From: Myroides phaeus | GTDB lineage: Bacteria > Bacteroidota > Bacteroidia > Flavobacteriales > Flavobacteriaceae | Assembly (NCBI RefSeq): GCF_900099675.1 | Contig: NZ_FNDQ01000002.1 | Location: 62,001 to 126,000, forward strand | DNA: 64,000 nucleotides | Direction: 5' to 3' | Shown here: positions 353 to 63,100 of the stretch, piece by piece | Numbering within the stretch: the stretch's first letter is position 1 | Layout of the letters: every line of letters starts with the position of its first letter | The notes under the pieces: model-generated | Told to the model about the DNA's origin: nothing | Seen by the model: the letters and a program-made list of their open reading frames with translations, nothing else | Database searches by the model: none | Position numbers and translations under genes: made by a program

Positions 353-518
353 GTTTTTAAGAGGCATACTAAGTTCTCTTTATAATACTGAATCAGGTAA
401 AAATCTTAAGGATTAAGTATATAACTCTCTTGTTTCTAAGAAGCAAAATAAGTAAAGATTTAAAATGTAATACATTGGATTGTTCTAGCAACAAAGAACA
501 TATGAAAGTGTAGTTTTA

Positions 519-631
519 AACGTACCATGTTCGAGACATCTCCCACTCAAGTACCACACACTTTCGAAAAAAAGCCTTTTTTCCGAAAGTGTGTGGTACA
601 AATGTGGTACTTGTGTGAAACAAGTTGCAAA
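519..631. repeat. Repeat element A: hairpin core with 11-bp-phased flanking units
   Basis: The core at 563-587 starts TTCGAAA, ends TTTCCGAA and folds on itself. To its left, 11-bp units begin at 519 (contains GTACCATG), 530 (TTCGAGA), 541 (TCCCACT) and 552 (TACCACA). To its right, read as reverse complements, units occupy 588-598 (TACCACA), 599-609 (TACCACA) and 610-620 (TTTCACA). The inner units are perfectly complementary, giving a 16-bp stem, GTACCACACACTTTCG at 551-566 with its complement at 584-599. The outer units are only partly complementary. Two related elements lie at 21598-21711 and 59110-59211. I do not recognise the family. Confidence 0.85.
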
Positions 632-904
632 GAAGCTTATAATAACAAGGCTTTAATACCGTTTTAAAGACTACCGAAATACATTTTTGTAAAGTACTAA
701 TTACTTTAGAACGGACTGAGATAAAGTGTTTTTTTTTAGATTAACTAAGATTTTGTTTAGTTCTCAACTTTTGTTGTTAATCCAGTAGGTGTCCTTTTTT
801 AGTGGGCATAAAACAGAATTAGATAAAAAATACTTTTGTTAAAAAAACTTTACTAATCTTGTTTTTCTATATTTTTAGAATTCATAAGTAATTTTAATTG
901 TAGT

Positions 905-21425: not shown

Positions 21426-21597
21426 ATGACAGCTATATATTTGACACTATTTTAAAGGAGTGATAGTTGACATATAAATATGATGTTTTTGATGCGAGAC
21501 TTCATCAAGTATAACTATTCTACGAGGTTTTGAGTTTTTTTTCGTAAGTAATGTTTTCGTTATAGAAGTGTTTACAACGTGAATTATAGGAGTTTCT

Positions 21598-21711
21598 ATT
21601 GTACCATGTTCGAGAGAACTTCGAGACAAGTACCAGATTCCTTCGAAAAACAGGGGCTTTTTCCGAAGAAGAGTCGACGTAGAGTCGAATTTGAGTGAAA
21701 CGAGGTCTGAA
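21598..21711. repeat. Repeat element B: 11-bp-phased units around a hairpin core
   Basis: The core at 21642-21667 starts TTCGAAA and ends TTTCCGAA. Left units of 11 bp start at 21598 (ends GTACCATG), 21609 (TTCGAGA), 21620 (TTCGAGA) and 21631 (TACCAGA). Right units, read as reverse complements, occupy 21668-21678 (GTCGACT), 21679-21689 (TTCGACT), 21690-21700 (TTTCACT) and 21701-21711. It shares GTACCATGTTCGAGA with element A at the same slot. Unlike A and C, its arms are not complementary outside the core, yet the 11-bp phase is intact. Confidence 0.8.
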
Positions 21712-22036
21712 TAAAACTGTTCTAAATGGTTATCTGTGGTAAAGGAATTCTCTCTTCTTGGGAAGACTAAAAGAAGTTTTGAATGATTGAAAACTACGTT
21801 TTAAGAGATTGTATTTTAAGGCAAAGTATTAATGGATATATAATACAGAAAGTAAAATTAAGGATGATATTTAGAACAAAAGAGAACTATGTTAATATAC
21901 AAGAATATTGTACCTTTATATAAAGGGGGTAAATAAATACAGTTTTAAGGATGCTTGTGTAATTTAAGATTGAAAAAGACAGATAAAGATTGAAATTTAG
22001 AACTTTTTAGGATATAGTTGAAATTTATAAGATTTA

Positions 22037-33830: not shown

Positions 33831-33838
33831 TCACTTAG

Positions 33839-33911
33839 TAGCGGGAACAGGACTCGAACCTGTGACCTTCGGGTTATGAGCCCGACGAGCTGCCTACTGC
33901 TCTATCCCGCG
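33839..33911 (-). tRNA. Initiator tRNA-fMet (CAT), copy 1
   Basis: The 73-nt sequence folds into a full cloverleaf. The anticodon is CAT in the loop CTCATAA, with the anticodon stem TCGGG/CCCGA giving the three G-C pairs of initiators. Base 1 is C and base 72 is T, unpaired, also an initiator trait. The T-loop reads TTCGAGT, and CCA is not encoded. A consensus promoter lies upstream on the minus strand: TTTG (plus CAAA 33950-33953), a 19-bp spacer and TATATTTG (plus 33923-33930). Confidence 0.97.
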
Positions 33912-34234
33912 ATATAGTGGTGCAAATATAGAATAATTATTTGGATTGACAAAATAAGTCTATGTCTGAGATGGTGCGTTGTTCTTGTTAAGTAACACCT
34001 TTAAGAAATTGAGAGGTGTGTAAATTGAAGTAAAGTGTATTGAATCAGATAGATACTTTTGTGCTTGAGCTTTTGAGTTTTAAAAAATAAAATATAGAAT
34101 TAGTGTATTTATTTTTAAAAAGGATGAGTATTTATGAGAGCAGTCCAGTTTATTTTGACCTTGAAGCAAGAAGAAAGTAGTTGATATTGTATCAATCTTT
34201 ACAATGCACACAAAAAAATATAAGCATAAAAAAA

Positions 34235-34254
34235 GCCACTTCGAATGAAGTGGC
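34235..34254 (-). terminator. Terminator of tRNA-fMet copy 2
   Basis: GCCACTTC, loop GAAT, GAAGTGGC, with a T-run on the minus strand. Confidence 0.9.
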
Positions 34255-34262
34255 TTACTTAG

Positions 34263-34335
34263 TAGCGGGAACAGGACTCGAACCTGTGACCTTCGGGTTA
34301 TGAGCCCGACGAGCTGCCTACTGCTCTATCCCGCG
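34263..34335 (-). tRNA. Initiator tRNA-fMet (CAT), copy 2
   Basis: It is identical in its 73 bases to copy 1. Its own promoter is CTTG, 19 bp, TATATTTG on the minus strand (plus 34347-34354 and 34374-34377), and its terminator is at 34235-34254. Confidence 0.97.
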
Positions 34336-34605
34336 ATATATTGGTGCAAATATAGTATGAATAATTGAATTGGCAAGAATTGATAGGAAATATTTTACTT
34401 TTTTTTGAGTCGTGTTGTTTTTGAATCAGAGAAAGCTCTTGTTTAAAAAAGAGTAATTTGTCTTATTTTTAAAATGGATAGAATTATGTGTTGTTGATTT
34501 ATAATTAGTTAAGGTTTGTGAATTTCAAGTTTTGTATTAGAATAGAAAAGATTAGTACTATTTAGTAAGTAGGTTTGCATTGTAACTTGCGCCAAAATAA
34601 TTTGA

Positions 34606-35448
34606 ATGAGATATTATAGTAAGAAGTTACAAGTAGTACTATCAGTACTTTTTTTATTAATAGGGTATGTCTGTATTGCTCAAGAAGCTAAAGATAGTCT
34701 TAGAGAAGAGAAAAAGTTACTACCTAAAGTTGAGCACGCAGAGCCTTTGTTTAATGATTTGATGAGAGATTTAGGTGCCCGCAAAGGGGAGGCAGAGTTC
34801 AATATGGGGTTTGGTGTTGCAGATCACAAACATTATAACGAGTATTTTGGATTTATTGAATACGAATGGGCTGTTGCTAATAGGTTAGGAGTAGAAGTAG
34901 AGATTCCCTTTTCTTTTAATAGTAAAGAAAAGGGGATAGGAAATCAAATGATTCCTAATAATAGAATAGAAGGAATAAAATTAGCTACTCAATATACTTT
35001 CTTGGTAAATGAAAAAGCTCAGACTTCGATGGCAGTAGCTTATATTCACGAATTTGAAATGAACTATTTGAAGAAGTTAGATGGTGATGGGAAGTTTTTT
35101 ACAGGAATGCGAATGAATCCTATTTTAGTTGTTGCTAAGAAGTTTAATAATTTCAATGCAATGGTATTTGGTGGACCAGTATTTGAGAATACATTTGATA
35201 CAGGAGAGACGCATGTGTTAGGTACAATTAATGCGAGTTTACTTTATGTTTTACCTAATTCTAAGAACTTTATTGGTATTGAGAATAATATTGATTTCAA
35301 ACAAGATAGATTTCAATATGTATTACACCCACAGATAAAAGTTGCTTTATTGCATAATCTTGCAGTAGGTTTTGTTACAGGGATACCATTGTCAAGTTAT
35401 AAAGAGATGAAGATGGATTTCTTAACTCGTATTATTTGGGAACCGTAG
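34606..35448 (+). CDS. Predicted outer-membrane beta-barrel protein of unknown function
   Basis: The 280-residue product has a signal peptide ending C-I-A-Q (about residue 26). Then comes H-A-E-P-L-F-N-D-L-M-R-D-L-G-A-R-K-G-E, followed by alternating short strands with turns such as F-G-F-I-E-Y-E-W-A-V and a C-terminal aromatic-rich strand ending I-I-W-E-P. I recall an unnamed Bacteroidetes family beginning with this H-A-E-P-L motif. The gene lies between tRNA-fMet copies 2 and 3 on the opposite strand. No substrate can be inferred. Confidence 0.6.
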   Translation: MRYYSKKLQVVLSVLFLLIGYVCIAQEAKDSLREEKKLLPKVEHAEPLFNDLMRDLGARKGEAEFNMGFGVADHKHYNEYFGFIEYEWAVANRLGVEVEIPFSFNSKEKGIGNQMIPNNRIEGIKLATQYTFLVNEKAQTSMAVAYIHEFEMNYLKKLDGDGKFFTGMRMNPILVVAKKFNNFNAMVFGGPVFENTFDTGETHVLGTINASLLYVLPNSKNFIGIENNIDFKQDRFQYVLHPQIKVALLHNLAVGFVTGIPLSSYKEMKMDFLTRIIWEP

Positions 35449-35493
35449 AAAGAAGATAAAGGATATATCCTTTTTGTGTATATAGTTTTAAGT

Positions 35494-35526
35494 AAAAGCT
35501 GTTGTATTTTATATAACAGCTTTTTT
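35494..35526 (+). terminator. Terminator after the beta-barrel gene
   Basis: AAAAGCTGTT (35494-35503) pairs with AACAGCTTTT (35515-35524), followed by T residues. Confidence 0.8.
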
Positions 35527-35550
35527 ATGGTATATGGTAAAATAAAAAAA

Positions 35551-35570
35551 GCCACTTCGAATGAAGTGGC
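35551..35570 (-). terminator. Terminator of tRNA-fMet copy 3
   Basis: GCCACTTC, loop GAAT, GAAGTGGC, the same as at copies 2 and 4. Confidence 0.9.
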
Positions 35571-35578
35571 TTACTTGG

Positions 35579-35651
35579 TAGCGGGAACAGGACTCGAACC
35601 TGTGACCTTCGGGTTATGAGCCCGACGAGCTGCCTACTGCTCTATCCCGCG
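35579..35651 (-). tRNA. Initiator tRNA-fMet (CAT), copy 3
   Basis: The 73 bases are identical to copy 1. TATATTTG is at plus 35663-35670. The -33 box is weaker here: TTG, 22-bp spacer. Confidence 0.97.
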
Positions 35652-35670
35652 ATATAGTGGTGCAAATATA

Positions 35671-36010
35671 GTATGAATAATTCTAAAAAGAACAACCTAA
35701 TGGGACTAATATTCTTTAAGAGTTAAAGTTTAACATTTATTGTTTTATAAGTGGTTGTATTGGAGTTTGTAAGGTTGATTTTGTTTTTAAATGTTAAAGC
35801 GAGTTTTATAAGATATAGTTCAATCTAAATAGATTTTAGCTTTAATATTGAATTAAAAGTGATGTAAAATAAAGACAAATAAATTGAATGGAAATCTAAA
35901 ACTTGTAGAGTGTACACTTGTAGATATTAGTAAGCAATGTGAAGTTTATGCTATTTTTGAAAAAGATCGAATCAAGAAAGATGATTATATTAAGTATAAG
36001 CATAAAAAAA
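35671..36010. other. Spacer between tRNA-fMet copies 3 and 4
   Basis: About 340 AT-rich bases with no coding frame, hairpin or promoter that I can support, apart from the -33 region of copy 3. Confidence 0.6.
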
Positions 36011-36030
36011 GCCACTTCGAATGAAGTGGC
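36011..36030 (-). terminator. Terminator of tRNA-fMet copy 4
   Basis: GCCACTTC, loop GAAT, GAAGTGGC with a T-run on the minus strand. Confidence 0.9.
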
Positions 36031-36038
36031 TTACTTAG

Positions 36039-36111
36039 TAGCGGGAACAGGACTCGAACCTGTGACCTTCGGGTTATGAGCCCGACGAGCTGCCTACTGC
36101 TCTATCCCGCG
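36039..36111 (-). tRNA. Initiator tRNA-fMet (CAT), copy 4
   Basis: The 73 bases are identical to copy 1. Its promoter is TTTG, 19 bp, TATATTTG on the minus strand (plus 36123-36130 and 36150-36153). Confidence 0.97.
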
Positions 36112-59043: not shown

Positions 59044-59109
59044 GTGATATATGTATTAAATAAAAAGCTACATATGGTTGATATTGCTTTATGTGTTATA
59101 GGTATTAAG

Positions 59110-59211
59110 TTCGACACAAGTTCGACATTTCTCCCACATTCCTTCGAAAAAAAGGCTTATTTCCGAAGGAATGTGGGAGAAATGTCGAAGGAATGTCGAA
59201 TTTGGTCTTAA
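59110..59211. repeat. Repeat element C: long hairpin with 11-bp-phased units
   Basis: The core at 59143-59167 starts TTCGAAA and ends TTTCCGAA. Left 11-bp units are at 59110 (TTCGACA), 59121 (TTCGACA) and 59132 (TCCCACA). Right units, as reverse complements, are at 59168-59178 (TCCCACA), 59179-59189 (TTCGACA) and 59190-59200 (TTCGACA). The two inner units pair perfectly, so with the core the stem runs 26 bp (59121-59146 with 59164-59189). The element lies 3' of both convergent genes hemL and rnhB, ending about 9 bases from the rnhB stop. Confidence 0.9.
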
Positions 59212-59219
59212 CGAAGCTT

Positions 59220-60163: not shown

Positions 60164-63100
60164 ATGATATCAAAGTTTAAGTGGACTTTAGCACTAATCT
60201 TAGTGCTATTTGTGCAGATTTCTTTTGCACAAACGAAAACACTATCTGGTGTTGTTACTGACGGTGATTTTCCTTTACCAGGGGTTACTGTTGTAATTAA
60301 AGGAACACAAGATGGGTTACAAACAGATTTCGATGGAAAATATTCCATTGTTGTAAAACAAGGACAAATTGTAACATTCTCATTTATTGGAATGGCAGAT
60401 GTTGAGTATAAGGTAGGAGCTTCTACTACTCATAATGTTGTTATGAAATCAGATGAAGAAATGTTAGAAGAGGTTGTAGTATTGGCTTACGGTCAAACTA
60501 AAACTAAAAATGAAGTTACAGGAAACGTTGTTGCTGTTAAAGGAGATGTAGTAGCTCAAACTCCAGTAGCATCTGTTGACCAAGCTTTACAAGGGCGTGT
60601 AGCAGGACTTCAAATTGCTACAACTTCTGGTTCACCAGGAGCGCAACAAAATATTAGAATTCGTGGTCGTAACTCTATGTCTGCGACGAACGAACCATTA
60701 TATGTGATTGATGGAATGCCTATTATCACTGATAACTTATCAGGAGATTCTAAAGGAACAAGTTTATCTGCATTATCTGGAATTAACAGTGATGATATTG
60801 AATCAATGACTGTATTAAAAGATGCTGCTGCTACTGCTGCTTATGGTGCACGTGGTGGTAATGGAGTAATCTTAATTACTACGAAAAAAGGTAAAAGAGG
60901 AGAACCTTCTTATACTTTTAAATCATCTATAGGTATTCAAAATTTTGCTCGTAAAGGACCTAAATTTTTAACTGGTGAACAGAAAAAAGAATTATGGTTA
61001 GAGGCTAATTATAATACTTATGGAGCAAAAGAAGGATTTACTAAGGAAGAAGCTTTTGATTGGTATATTAGTGAAGATGGTTACGGGCCAAAGAATGCAT
61101 TATCTCAATGGGTTGCTAATGGATCTCAAAATTATGACTGGAGAGATGCAGTACAAAATAAAAATGCAATTATGTCTTCAATTAGCTTAGGTGTTAATGG
61201 AGGAGATGATAGAGGTTCTTATTACGCAAGTTTAGGACACGATAAATATGAAGGTGTTGTTATCGGTACTGACTTTAGAAAAGTAACAGGATCATTTACT
61301 ATGAATCGTAAATTAAATGAAAAACTTGATTTAACGGTTGGTGCAAATGTTTCTAATATTAAACAAAATGGTATTCCAGAAGGAGGGGCTTATTTTTCTA
61401 ACCCTAACTTAACTGGTATGTTTATGAGTCCATGGACAGCAATTTATAATGCAGATGGAACACCAAATTTAAATACATCAGCAGGTCTTCATAACTCAAT
61501 TTACACTATGGCAAATAATGTAAATGAGAATGATGTTACACGTGTTATTTCAAACAATAGTTTAGGGTATAAAATTTTAGATAACTTAAAATTTGAGTCT
61601 AAAATTGGTTTAGATTATACTTTAGCTAATTACAAAATGTTTGCAAATCCAGTACATGGAGATGGGTTAGCTTATAAAGGTTCTTCAAGTCAAAATGAAA
61701 GAAGAATTTTCAACTACGTTTGGCAAAACTCTTTAGACTATAGATTTTATTTAGGAGATTCTCACCGTTTTAATGTAAAAGCGTTAGTAGAGTATCAAAA
61801 AAATAAACTGAACGAATTAGAAGGCCGTGGTGAGGTTCTTCCTCCGGGAATGAACAGTTTAGGTACTGCTGCTGCTAATTACAGTGCATATGGTAACTTT
61901 TATGACTGGTCACAGTTTAGTTATTTAGGTATGTTAAACTATGATTACCAAAACCGTTATTTATTAGATGTTACTTTCCGTAGAGAAGGTTCTTCAAGAT
62001 TTTCTGAAGATGACAGATGGGGTAATTTCTATGCAGTAGGTGGGGCTTGGAACATTAGTTCAGAAACATTTATGCAGAATGCTTTTGCTGTAAGTTTATT
62101 GCGTTTAAGAGCATCTTACGGGACAACAGGTAACTCTTCTATTAGCCCTAACTTGTTTATGCAACAAATGGAAGCAGGTACTTATAATAATGAATCAGCT
62201 TTATTGTCTTCTCGTTACGGAGGACCATTAGGATGGGAGAAACAAGAGAAATTTGACGCAGGTGTTGAATTCGGTTTCTTTAATAATAGATTATCTGGTA
62301 GTTTAACTTACTACAAAAGTAAGAGTAAAGACTTATTATATGCAGTGCCATTATCTCTAACTTCTGGTTATGATTCACAATGGACTAATATTGGAGATTT
62401 AACAAACACTGGTTTTGAGGCTGAATTAAATGTTGATATTTTCAGAGGAGATGATTTTAATTGGTCTGTTGGTGCAAACGTTGGTACAGTTAAGAATGAA
62501 GTAACGCGTATGCCTATTGTTAAAGGAGAGCGTTTAGAAGTATTATCAAGTTTCACAGGTACAGTAGAAGGAAAGCCTTATGCTACTTGGTATTTACCTG
62601 AATATGCTGGAGTAGATCCTCAAACAGGAAGTGCTTTATGGTATGCTGCAGATGGTAACACAACAGCTGTTTATTCTAATGCTGAAAAACGTTTCCAAAA
62701 TACAAGTGCTTTACCTAAAGTTACTGGAGGTTTCAATACTCACGTTGATTTTAAAGGATTCTATTTAGATGCTTTATTCTCATTTGCTACAGGATATTCT
62801 GTATATGATTCATGGTCAGGTTTTACTAATTCTAATGCAAAAACATCTATTTATACTTACAATGGTACAACTGAGTTAATGGATAGATGGCAAAAGCCTG
62901 GAGACATTACAGATGTTCCTAAATTAAGTACAGCAAGTTCTTCTAAATATACTTCACCAAGTACAAGATGGTTGTATAAAGGAGATCATATTAGATTGAG
63001 ACAAGTAACATTTGGTTATAATTTAAGCAAACAAGCTGTTAAGTCTATCGGAGTTGATGCTATTAATATTTCTATGGCAGCGATGAATCCATTTGTATGG

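Follow-up and report, generated by a model that had tools for sequence, protein, structure and literature searches.

The strong sites of DNA gyrase in Escherichia coli contain a motif in which a dyad is accompanied by helically phased wings. REP elements are described as dispersed extragenic palindromes that are grouped near specific genes of one protein family (PMC3116915). They are reported to measure 20–40 bp and to carry a GTAG/CGTC tag (PMC3733652), whereas the arrays described here, from Myroides phaeus and its relatives, are ~110 bp long and have arms of ~3–4 exactly phased 11-bp words. The partner of a RAYT system is a Y1 transposase, whereas the partner gene of the arrays encodes a DUF6266 protein. 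The partition protein ParR is described as requiring 11-bp repeats in the case of R1 and 10-bp repeats in the case of pB171, in arrays located upstream of parM (PMC9426499). In the same way as in that description of parC/ParR, phased repeats of 10 or 11 bp are found here upstream of a gene and differ between families; however, the present arrays are inverted about a core, occur in dozens of chromosomal copies and go with a protein of PF19781, and no recurrent second gene was found. The comparisons presented below suggest that these arrays are probably double-stranded, helically phased binding arrays, most likely for DUF6266 (PF19781) proteins.

The window, which is the whole stretch of 64,000 nt that was analysed, corresponds to positions 62,001–126,000 (forward strand) of contig NZ_FNDQ01000002.1 from M. 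phaeus GCF_900099675.1. The initial annotation had described three intergenic elements in it, with a common core TTCGAAA...TTTCCGAA and flanking units of 11 bp. The three cores were found exactly as claimed (Table 1), and the pattern T-N-Y-S-A-S-W fitted the 18 flanking 11-mers as stated, with A at position 5 in 18/18 and T at position 1 in 17/18. Element 2 is flanked by a minus-strand radical-SAM (UPF0004/TRAM) gene and a plus-strand gene for a DNA topoisomerase (topA-type), and an array adjoins this topoisomerase gene in genome G104 too (genomes, contigs and loci are cited by handles starting with G, C and L, respectively). The neighbours of element 3 are convergent, an aminotransferase-III gene and an RNase HII gene. 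Rfam covariance models matched the window at five places (four tRNAs and an S15 leader), none of them at the three elements. The leader is an S15-Flavobacteria ribosomal protein leader (RF03161) at 1447–1517, and the tRNAs are four tRNA-Met (CAT) genes, arranged in two pairs at 33838–36111 on the minus strand; between and beside these pairs, the plus strand carries a 280-aa ORF without a Pfam match and a gene for an Era-like (MMR_HSR1 + KH_2) GTPase.

Table 1. Parts of the three elements in the window. R1 is the profile built from six M. phaeus copies and R2 the broader profile derived from 21 copies in seven genomes; the units of right arms are read toward the core.
Feature	Position	Strand	Units or size	Basis
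Element 1, whole (both arms and the core, with outer motifs, e.g. TAAACGTACCATG)	517..633	+		R1 matches 517-629 (+), E 3.4e-30, and 521-633 (-); R2 match 530-620
Element 1, left arm	530..562	+	TTCGAGACATC TCCCACTCAAG TACCACACACT	Read directly
Element 1, core	563..587	+	TTCGAAAAAAAGCCTTTTTTCCGAA, 25 bp	Core pattern search
Element 1, right arm	588..620	-	TTTCACACAAG TACCACATTTG TACCACACACT	Read directly
Element 2, whole	21596..21713	+		R1 match 21596-21709, E 3e-20
Element 2, left arm	21609..21641	+	TTCGAGAGAAC TTCGAGACAAG TACCAGATTCC	Read directly
Element 2, core	21642..21667	+	26 bp	Core pattern search
Element 2, right arm	21668..21700	-	TTTCACTCAAA TTCGACTCTAC GTCGACTCTTC	Read directly
Element 3, whole	59097..59213	+		R1 match 59097-59209, E 3.2e-29
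Element 3, left arm	59110..59142	+	TTCGACACAAG TTCGACATTTC TCCCACATTCC	Read directly
Element 3, core	59143..59167	+	25 bp	Core pattern search
Element 3, right arm	59168..59200	-	TTCGACATTCC TTCGACATTTC TCCCACATTCC	Read directly

The observation is larger than the three window elements first noted. A search with the core only, which holds no word information, gave five matches in the 2.97-Mb M. phaeus assembly, two of them outside the window, and in-phase words were present on both arms of all five; the elements are therefore not due to chance, and both the dispersed family and the 11-bp phase proposed from the window are supported. A sixth M. phaeus copy has a slightly different core, and it was combined with the five core-only matches to build R1. 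With this profile, at least 52 sites were found in M. phaeus at E values up to 0.02, on at least 25 contigs and with the six training copies included; 42 of the 52 listed sites had E < 1e-6, the training copies being among these. The recurrence of a small word vocabulary was supported in the dispersed copies as well. Within the arms of 47 M. phaeus copies (94 arms), identity was 0.57 at lag 11 and 0.48 at lag 22, compared with 0.21–0.29 at the remaining lags from 6 to 23, lag 18 excepted (0.34), and control flanks gave 0.29–0.32 at every lag. Similarly, 128 arms from other genomes displayed identities of 0.59 at lag 11, 0.53 at lag 22 and 0.23–0.34 elsewhere. Since most copies were found by models trained on the words, the unbiased evidence for the phase consists of the five core-only matches and the model-free lag test given below. 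In several length variants the difference amounts to whole units (103 vs 114, 124 vs 113 and 81 vs 114), and the lengths 134, 104 and 101 have no exact fit to whole units. The likeliest reason for the phase is the one already put forward for the window, a repeated contact on one helix face, presumably made by a protein. No published description of such arrays was found in open-licence PMC full text.

When R1 was applied to 150 relatives, matches were obtained in ten of them at E ≤ 0.1. The copies in G115, G020, G064 and G148 follow the same plan with different words, hereafter called dialects: G115 uses TTGGAGATTCC and TTCGACATTCC, G020 has words of the kind of TTGGGGTTTTC, and both G064 and G148 have TTCGGGTGTTG. 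The general profile R2 detected arrays at E ≤ 0.001 in 34/296 relatives, often several per genome, in a survey that scored at most 14 candidates in each genome. In the Flavobacterium copies a motif like TTTTTAGGGGTTTTG recurs, by eye, just outside the units, and in some copies (G192, G121, G013, G154 and G107, also by eye) a second array with a 10-bp period is found beyond the outer motif. In three rrn operons of G058, an array (L302–L304, all with equal scores) precedes the 16S rRNA by ~830 bp.

The link with DUF6266 surfaced when the proteins flanking arrays in different genomes were clustered, and the family clustered beside the arrays, at a distance of 117–266 bp in seven genomes, proved to be DUF6266 (PF19781 in Pfam). 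The window-only view had captured the family of elements and its phase but missed this link, which lies outside the window. Among the 296 relatives, arrays (R2, E ≤ 0.001) were present in 34, DUF6266 in 32 and both in 22 (Fisher p 2.5e-17), with the reservation that co-occurrence p-values overstate independence because the genomes are related; 12 of the 34 array genomes were without a detected DUF6266, and 10 of the 32 DUF6266 genomes were without an R2 match at threshold. Because these relatives are not independent, a class-wide draw of 395 genomes was made and the genomes known from the earlier set were put aside (390 is an approximate denominator, the overlap being inexact). DUF6266 was found in three of the four new array genomes against 15/386 of the others (p 3.2e-4). 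The M. phaeus genome itself has three DUF6266 genes.

The arrays lie upstream of the DUF6266 genes. At DUF6266 loci that had been found through the protein, R2 matched 16/30 in a first set at E ≤ 1, with 14 at E ≤ 0.024, and 3/26 in a second set at E ≤ 0.04, the latter comprising 26 of the 28 loci of L374–L401 after L391 (below the family cut-off) and L396 (M. phaeus) had been left out. All 19 matches were upstream of the gene and none downstream, 37 of the 56 loci being without a match; five of the 19 belonged to the loci that had led to the DUF6266 link, and 14 were found elsewhere. The position was also evaluated without any array model, by taking the strongest local repeat at lags 7–20 in ~460 bp upstream, with ties shared. 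Lag 11 was the top lag in 32 of 70 regions upstream of DUF6266 genes, followed by lag 10 (12.2) and lag 20 (7.2), in a sample that had been inspected by eye beforehand and includes some close relatives, e.g. L328/L329. In the controls, lag 11 was the top lag in 7.4/69 regions downstream of DUF6266 and in 4.4/78 regions upstream of pfkB. The phage-type DUF6266 subfamily showed a weak lag-11 signal (3.5/14), subfamily labels having been given by eye or, for L374–L379, by HMM score only. In distant families some of the upstream units appear by eye as plain direct repeats, for example TATATGCTAAC in G437 and TTTGACTCTTC in G559, and 11-bp and 10-bp arrays can stand upstream of one DUF6266 gene.

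The words of the upstream arrays tend to be those of the dispersed arrays in the same genome. The comparison covered 23 DUF6266 genes from genomes for which further arrays had been retrieved. The upstream array matched best within its own genome in 13 cases (expected 1.97, p 2e-13), and without M. phaeus and G115 in 8/18 (expected 0.30), although base composition could by itself tip the comparison toward the same genome. The other 10 upstream arrays matched best elsewhere, most such genomes having one or two dispersed arrays fetched. In this respect the arrays are like REP/REPIN-RAYT systems, in which dispersed populations are cognate to a gene copy. The three M. phaeus DUF6266 genes had their best matches in three different dispersed subsets: C20:156422 in the main TTCGA/TACCA/TCCCA set, window elements included (score 80.4), C20:92375 in a TTCGG set (score 26.4) and C43:41611 in the TCCGACAATTG array at C53:200887 (score 20.4, little above the 16.2 obtained in the next genome). 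One of the 52 listed sites is the array that precedes the DUF6266 match at C20:156422 by 428 bp. In G614 the word TTCGCCTATGC stands before DUF6266 and recurs in a dispersed array, and the array at L358 in G182 matched the array near M. odoratimimus pfkB with a score of 59.6, the next best being 20.2. The TCGTAA dialect of M. phaeus had no matching DUF6266 among the three found there. Judged from these sequence matches, the dialects appear to follow genomes and, where visible, paralogs.

No mention of DUF6266 was found in the open-licence PMC full text of 5.39 million papers. An alignment of 18 members displayed invariant glycines together with W24, R31, P34 and R169. The AlphaFold prediction for the L372 protein, alone and from a single sequence, was a model with strands in the second half but too poor (mean pLDDT 50) to assign a DNA-binding fold, and the DUF6266 profile found nothing better than E 0.25 among solved structures. 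The two proteins tried against Pfam matched PF19781 alone and no transposase family, none of 18 matched NCBIfam, and one of 18 matched an unnamed PHROGs family (E 0.002). DUF6266 was not found on plasmids, and in phages there was one weak partial match (25% of the query, E 8e-3), in a record with four hypothetical proteins and a PAPS reductase. Four scans of viral contigs gave one DUF6266 locus, L372 (IMGVR_UViG_3300006045_000545), in which a holin-family gene and a gene for a tyrosine integrase come after the DUF6266 gene; by eye, two small genes in between have a lysis-related look. A prophage-like element may thus be the home of the phage-type subfamily, and a phage origin of DUF6266 is possible.

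Other genes were seen beside DUF6266 at some loci. In G107 (L321/L333), DUF6266 and its array adjoin a Cas9 gene, with RuvC_III and HNH_4, and in G294 (L341) the neighbour of DUF6266 starts like Cas9 by eye, with a Pfam match below the cut-off (E 0.0059). A small protein of ~65–70 aa that looks helix-turn-helix-like by eye (..YPKDIQxITGRSxR..) is encoded within ~1.5 kb of DUF6266 in 10/56 loci (L347, L346, L351, L390, L399, L381, L378, L326, L329 and L336), four of which supplied seeds.

The imperfect palindrome formed by the two arms could reflect either a hairpin or a duplex site, and the initial annotation had allowed for a folded transcript with the geometry of A-form RNA. In the 38 M. phaeus copies of the main dialect, the arms matched their own partner no better than those of other copies (words 0.782 vs 0.780, spacers 0.582 vs 0.564), the observed match being reached by 395/1000 shuffles for words and 111/1000 for spacers. 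With all 47 copies pooled, arms matched their own partner above the shuffles (0/1000 reached the observed value), an excess that is attributed to the mixing of dialects. In the first six copies the pair measures were within the shuffling range (percentage paired 74/500, covariation score 43/500). Covariation of the arms across dialects was far above shuffling (0/500) and is read as the dyad symmetry of differing dialects, although a former function as a hairpin would leave the same signal. As for folding, window elements 1 and 3 were far better than shuffled sequence (z −6.4 and −10.8), whereas element 2 was not (z +0.84). An Rfam scan of the elements of 13 loci gave no match. The palindrome thus seems to follow from the use of one vocabulary in both arms and not from a need to pair. 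Since there is no excess of own-arm pairing within the main dialect, a hairpin of RNA or of single-stranded DNA is not the preferred reading, and a palindrome arising from a shared vocabulary favours a protein that reads duplex DNA.

Some array sites are kept between species, with the words changed between more distant ones. An array lies between the RNase H gene and the pfkB-type gene in M. phaeus, G115 and G058 (gene families checked in M. phaeus), and M. odoratimimus has an array upstream of pfkB (compared on the pfkB side); the pfkB-type protein beside one M. phaeus copy is 92% identical to its M. odoratimimus counterpart. The M. phaeus copy at the pfkB site scored 70 against the nearest copy of its own genome and 14 against the counterpart in G115. 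Several other distant pairs were alike (10.8 for the counterpart vs 67.2 within the genome, and 13.0 vs 79.2), not all strictly from the same gap: the other cross-genome pairs come from the same or neighbouring gaps, and C47/L144/L312, C27/L290 and C21:18871/L305 are probably not the same gap. G064, G148 and G290 likewise all have an array in the gap next to a SpoU-methylase gene; this gap, the pfkB site and the site of G020/G217 are the strictest cases of retention. A comparison of G115 with G064 that took their SpoU-methylase genes for one gene (rlmB) was dropped, as the domains differ. For close relatives, the counterpart could equal or exceed the same-genome copy in score (88.6 vs 28.6 for G148/G290 and 39.2 vs 34.2 for G020/G217); close counterparts stay similar, so that the replacement of words is seen only at larger distance. 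Among 80 pfkB loci an array was present at E ≤ 0.01 in L193 only, with M. albus among those without. Independent insertion at favoured sites is a possible source of the shared positions.

Copies can also move with other DNA, as is evident from the flanks copied in some units. At least 70 bp of left flank are common to 14 of the 52 listed M. phaeus copies, one of which has up to 359 bp of right flank in common as well. Four more copies share 530–667 bp, a second, TCGTAA-type array included, at 82–89% identity. In travelling within larger repeated units, these copies are like MITEs or IS-borne repeats, but 29 of the 52 listed copies have less than 30 bp of common flank on both sides. The 530–667-bp unit (L111 2500–3020, with copies on C37, C29 and C19 of M. 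phaeus) contains two arrays of different dialects with TGATGTCATTTGATAGCAAATGATGTCA between them, and TGATGTCATTTGATAGCAAATGATGTCA resembles by eye a stretch before DUF6266 in G018. A flanking remnant looked by eye like a possible end of an ISL3-type transposase, but its 52-aa piece gave no Pfam match.

This mobility, together with the dispersed intergenic imperfect palindromes and words tending to match the gene-linked copy of the same genome, is what would be expected of a REPIN/RAYT-like mobile element, in which a transposase reads the hairpin as single-stranded DNA and the dispersed copies are its non-autonomous progeny. Such an origin is unlikely here. The link with a RAYT-type transposase, which the initial annotation had proposed to look for, did not emerge from a PF01797 search of 150 relatives: the family was present in 74 of them without association with the arrays, and none was found at threshold in the array-bearing G020. 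M. phaeus has one weak PF01797 match (E 7.5e-6), and no transposase belonging to the arrays was found in that search. The DUF6266 proteins tried (two against Pfam, 18 against NCBIfam) match no transposase family, there is no selection on pairing inside the main-dialect copies, more than half of the listed copies are without appreciable common flanks, and some array sites persist between species; the lack of copy-by-copy conservation of pairing in the main dialect and the retention of some sites set the arrays apart from REPIN-RAYT.

A segregation or anchoring site of the parC/ParR type on the chromosome, with an adaptor that binds repeats phased at 10–11 bp and wraps them into a ring, is distinctly unlikely. 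The occurrence of both 11-bp and 10-bp arrays upstream of one gene, as reflected in the top lags of the 70 upstream regions, does recall this arrangement; however, no neighbour family was found in more than five loci (50 loci with 22 DUF6266 genes parsed, by family recurrence alone), in Pfam the DUF6266 proteins tried gave no match beyond PF19781, and the copies are scattered over at least 25 contigs instead of being single. The arrays are accordingly filed under neither of these systems, because the transposase and the pairing fail for REPIN/RAYT, and for parC there are many copies and no recurrent second gene was found.

It is very doubtful that the arrays are strong sites for DNA gyrase or a nucleoid protein, in which helix-phased anisotropic bending would operate without a dedicated partner protein. 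In having a dyad and helically phased wings they are similar to the gyrase motif of E. coli, three copies of G058 lie in rrn operons and window element 2 adjoins a topoisomerase gene, but discrete words that differ between related genomes and a tight link to a particular gene, DUF6266, are not expected for a conserved enzyme. A structured RNA, either a folded transcript or a terminator with one helical turn per unit, is scarcely credible, since the good folding of two window elements and the covariation across dialects are countered by element 2, by main-dialect arms no better matched than shuffled ones, by the lack of an Rfam family at the window elements and at the 13 loci scanned, and by several arrays upstream of distant DUF6266 genes that are, by eye, direct repeats with no clear palindrome.

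If the arrays are instead duplex binding sites for DUF6266 proteins, dyad-symmetric words occurring once per helical turn (11 bp) would line up adjacent copies of the protein along one face of the DNA. The array upstream of the gene, often within ~600 bp of DUF6266 and in some cases with a nearer 10-bp-phased array, suggests autoregulation, and the words shared with dispersed arrays of the same genome would provide each paralog with its own population of chromosomal sites. At these dispersed arrays, the bound DUF6266 protein would wrap or stiffen the DNA in a local nucleoprotein complex. DUF6266 binding, autoregulation, wrapping and any chromosomal role are what we infer from comparisons of genomes. 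A broader proposal is more tentative and rather less than probable: DUF6266 may comprise DNA-wrapping chromosomal proteins, possibly phage-derived, with a fast-changing specificity, and each paralog might rewrite its arrays in concert, so that fixed positions are kept while the words change between more distant species.

These results tie the previously unstudied DUF6266 family to a specific candidate DNA target and suggest a partnership that was undescribed. If the proposed binding is true, Bacteroidota would possess a new kind of pairing between a protein and its arrays, and the dialects would represent naturally orthogonal specificities. It would also make it possible to follow the joint change of a DNA-binding protein and its dozens of sites, and the system might serve to organise the chromosome.
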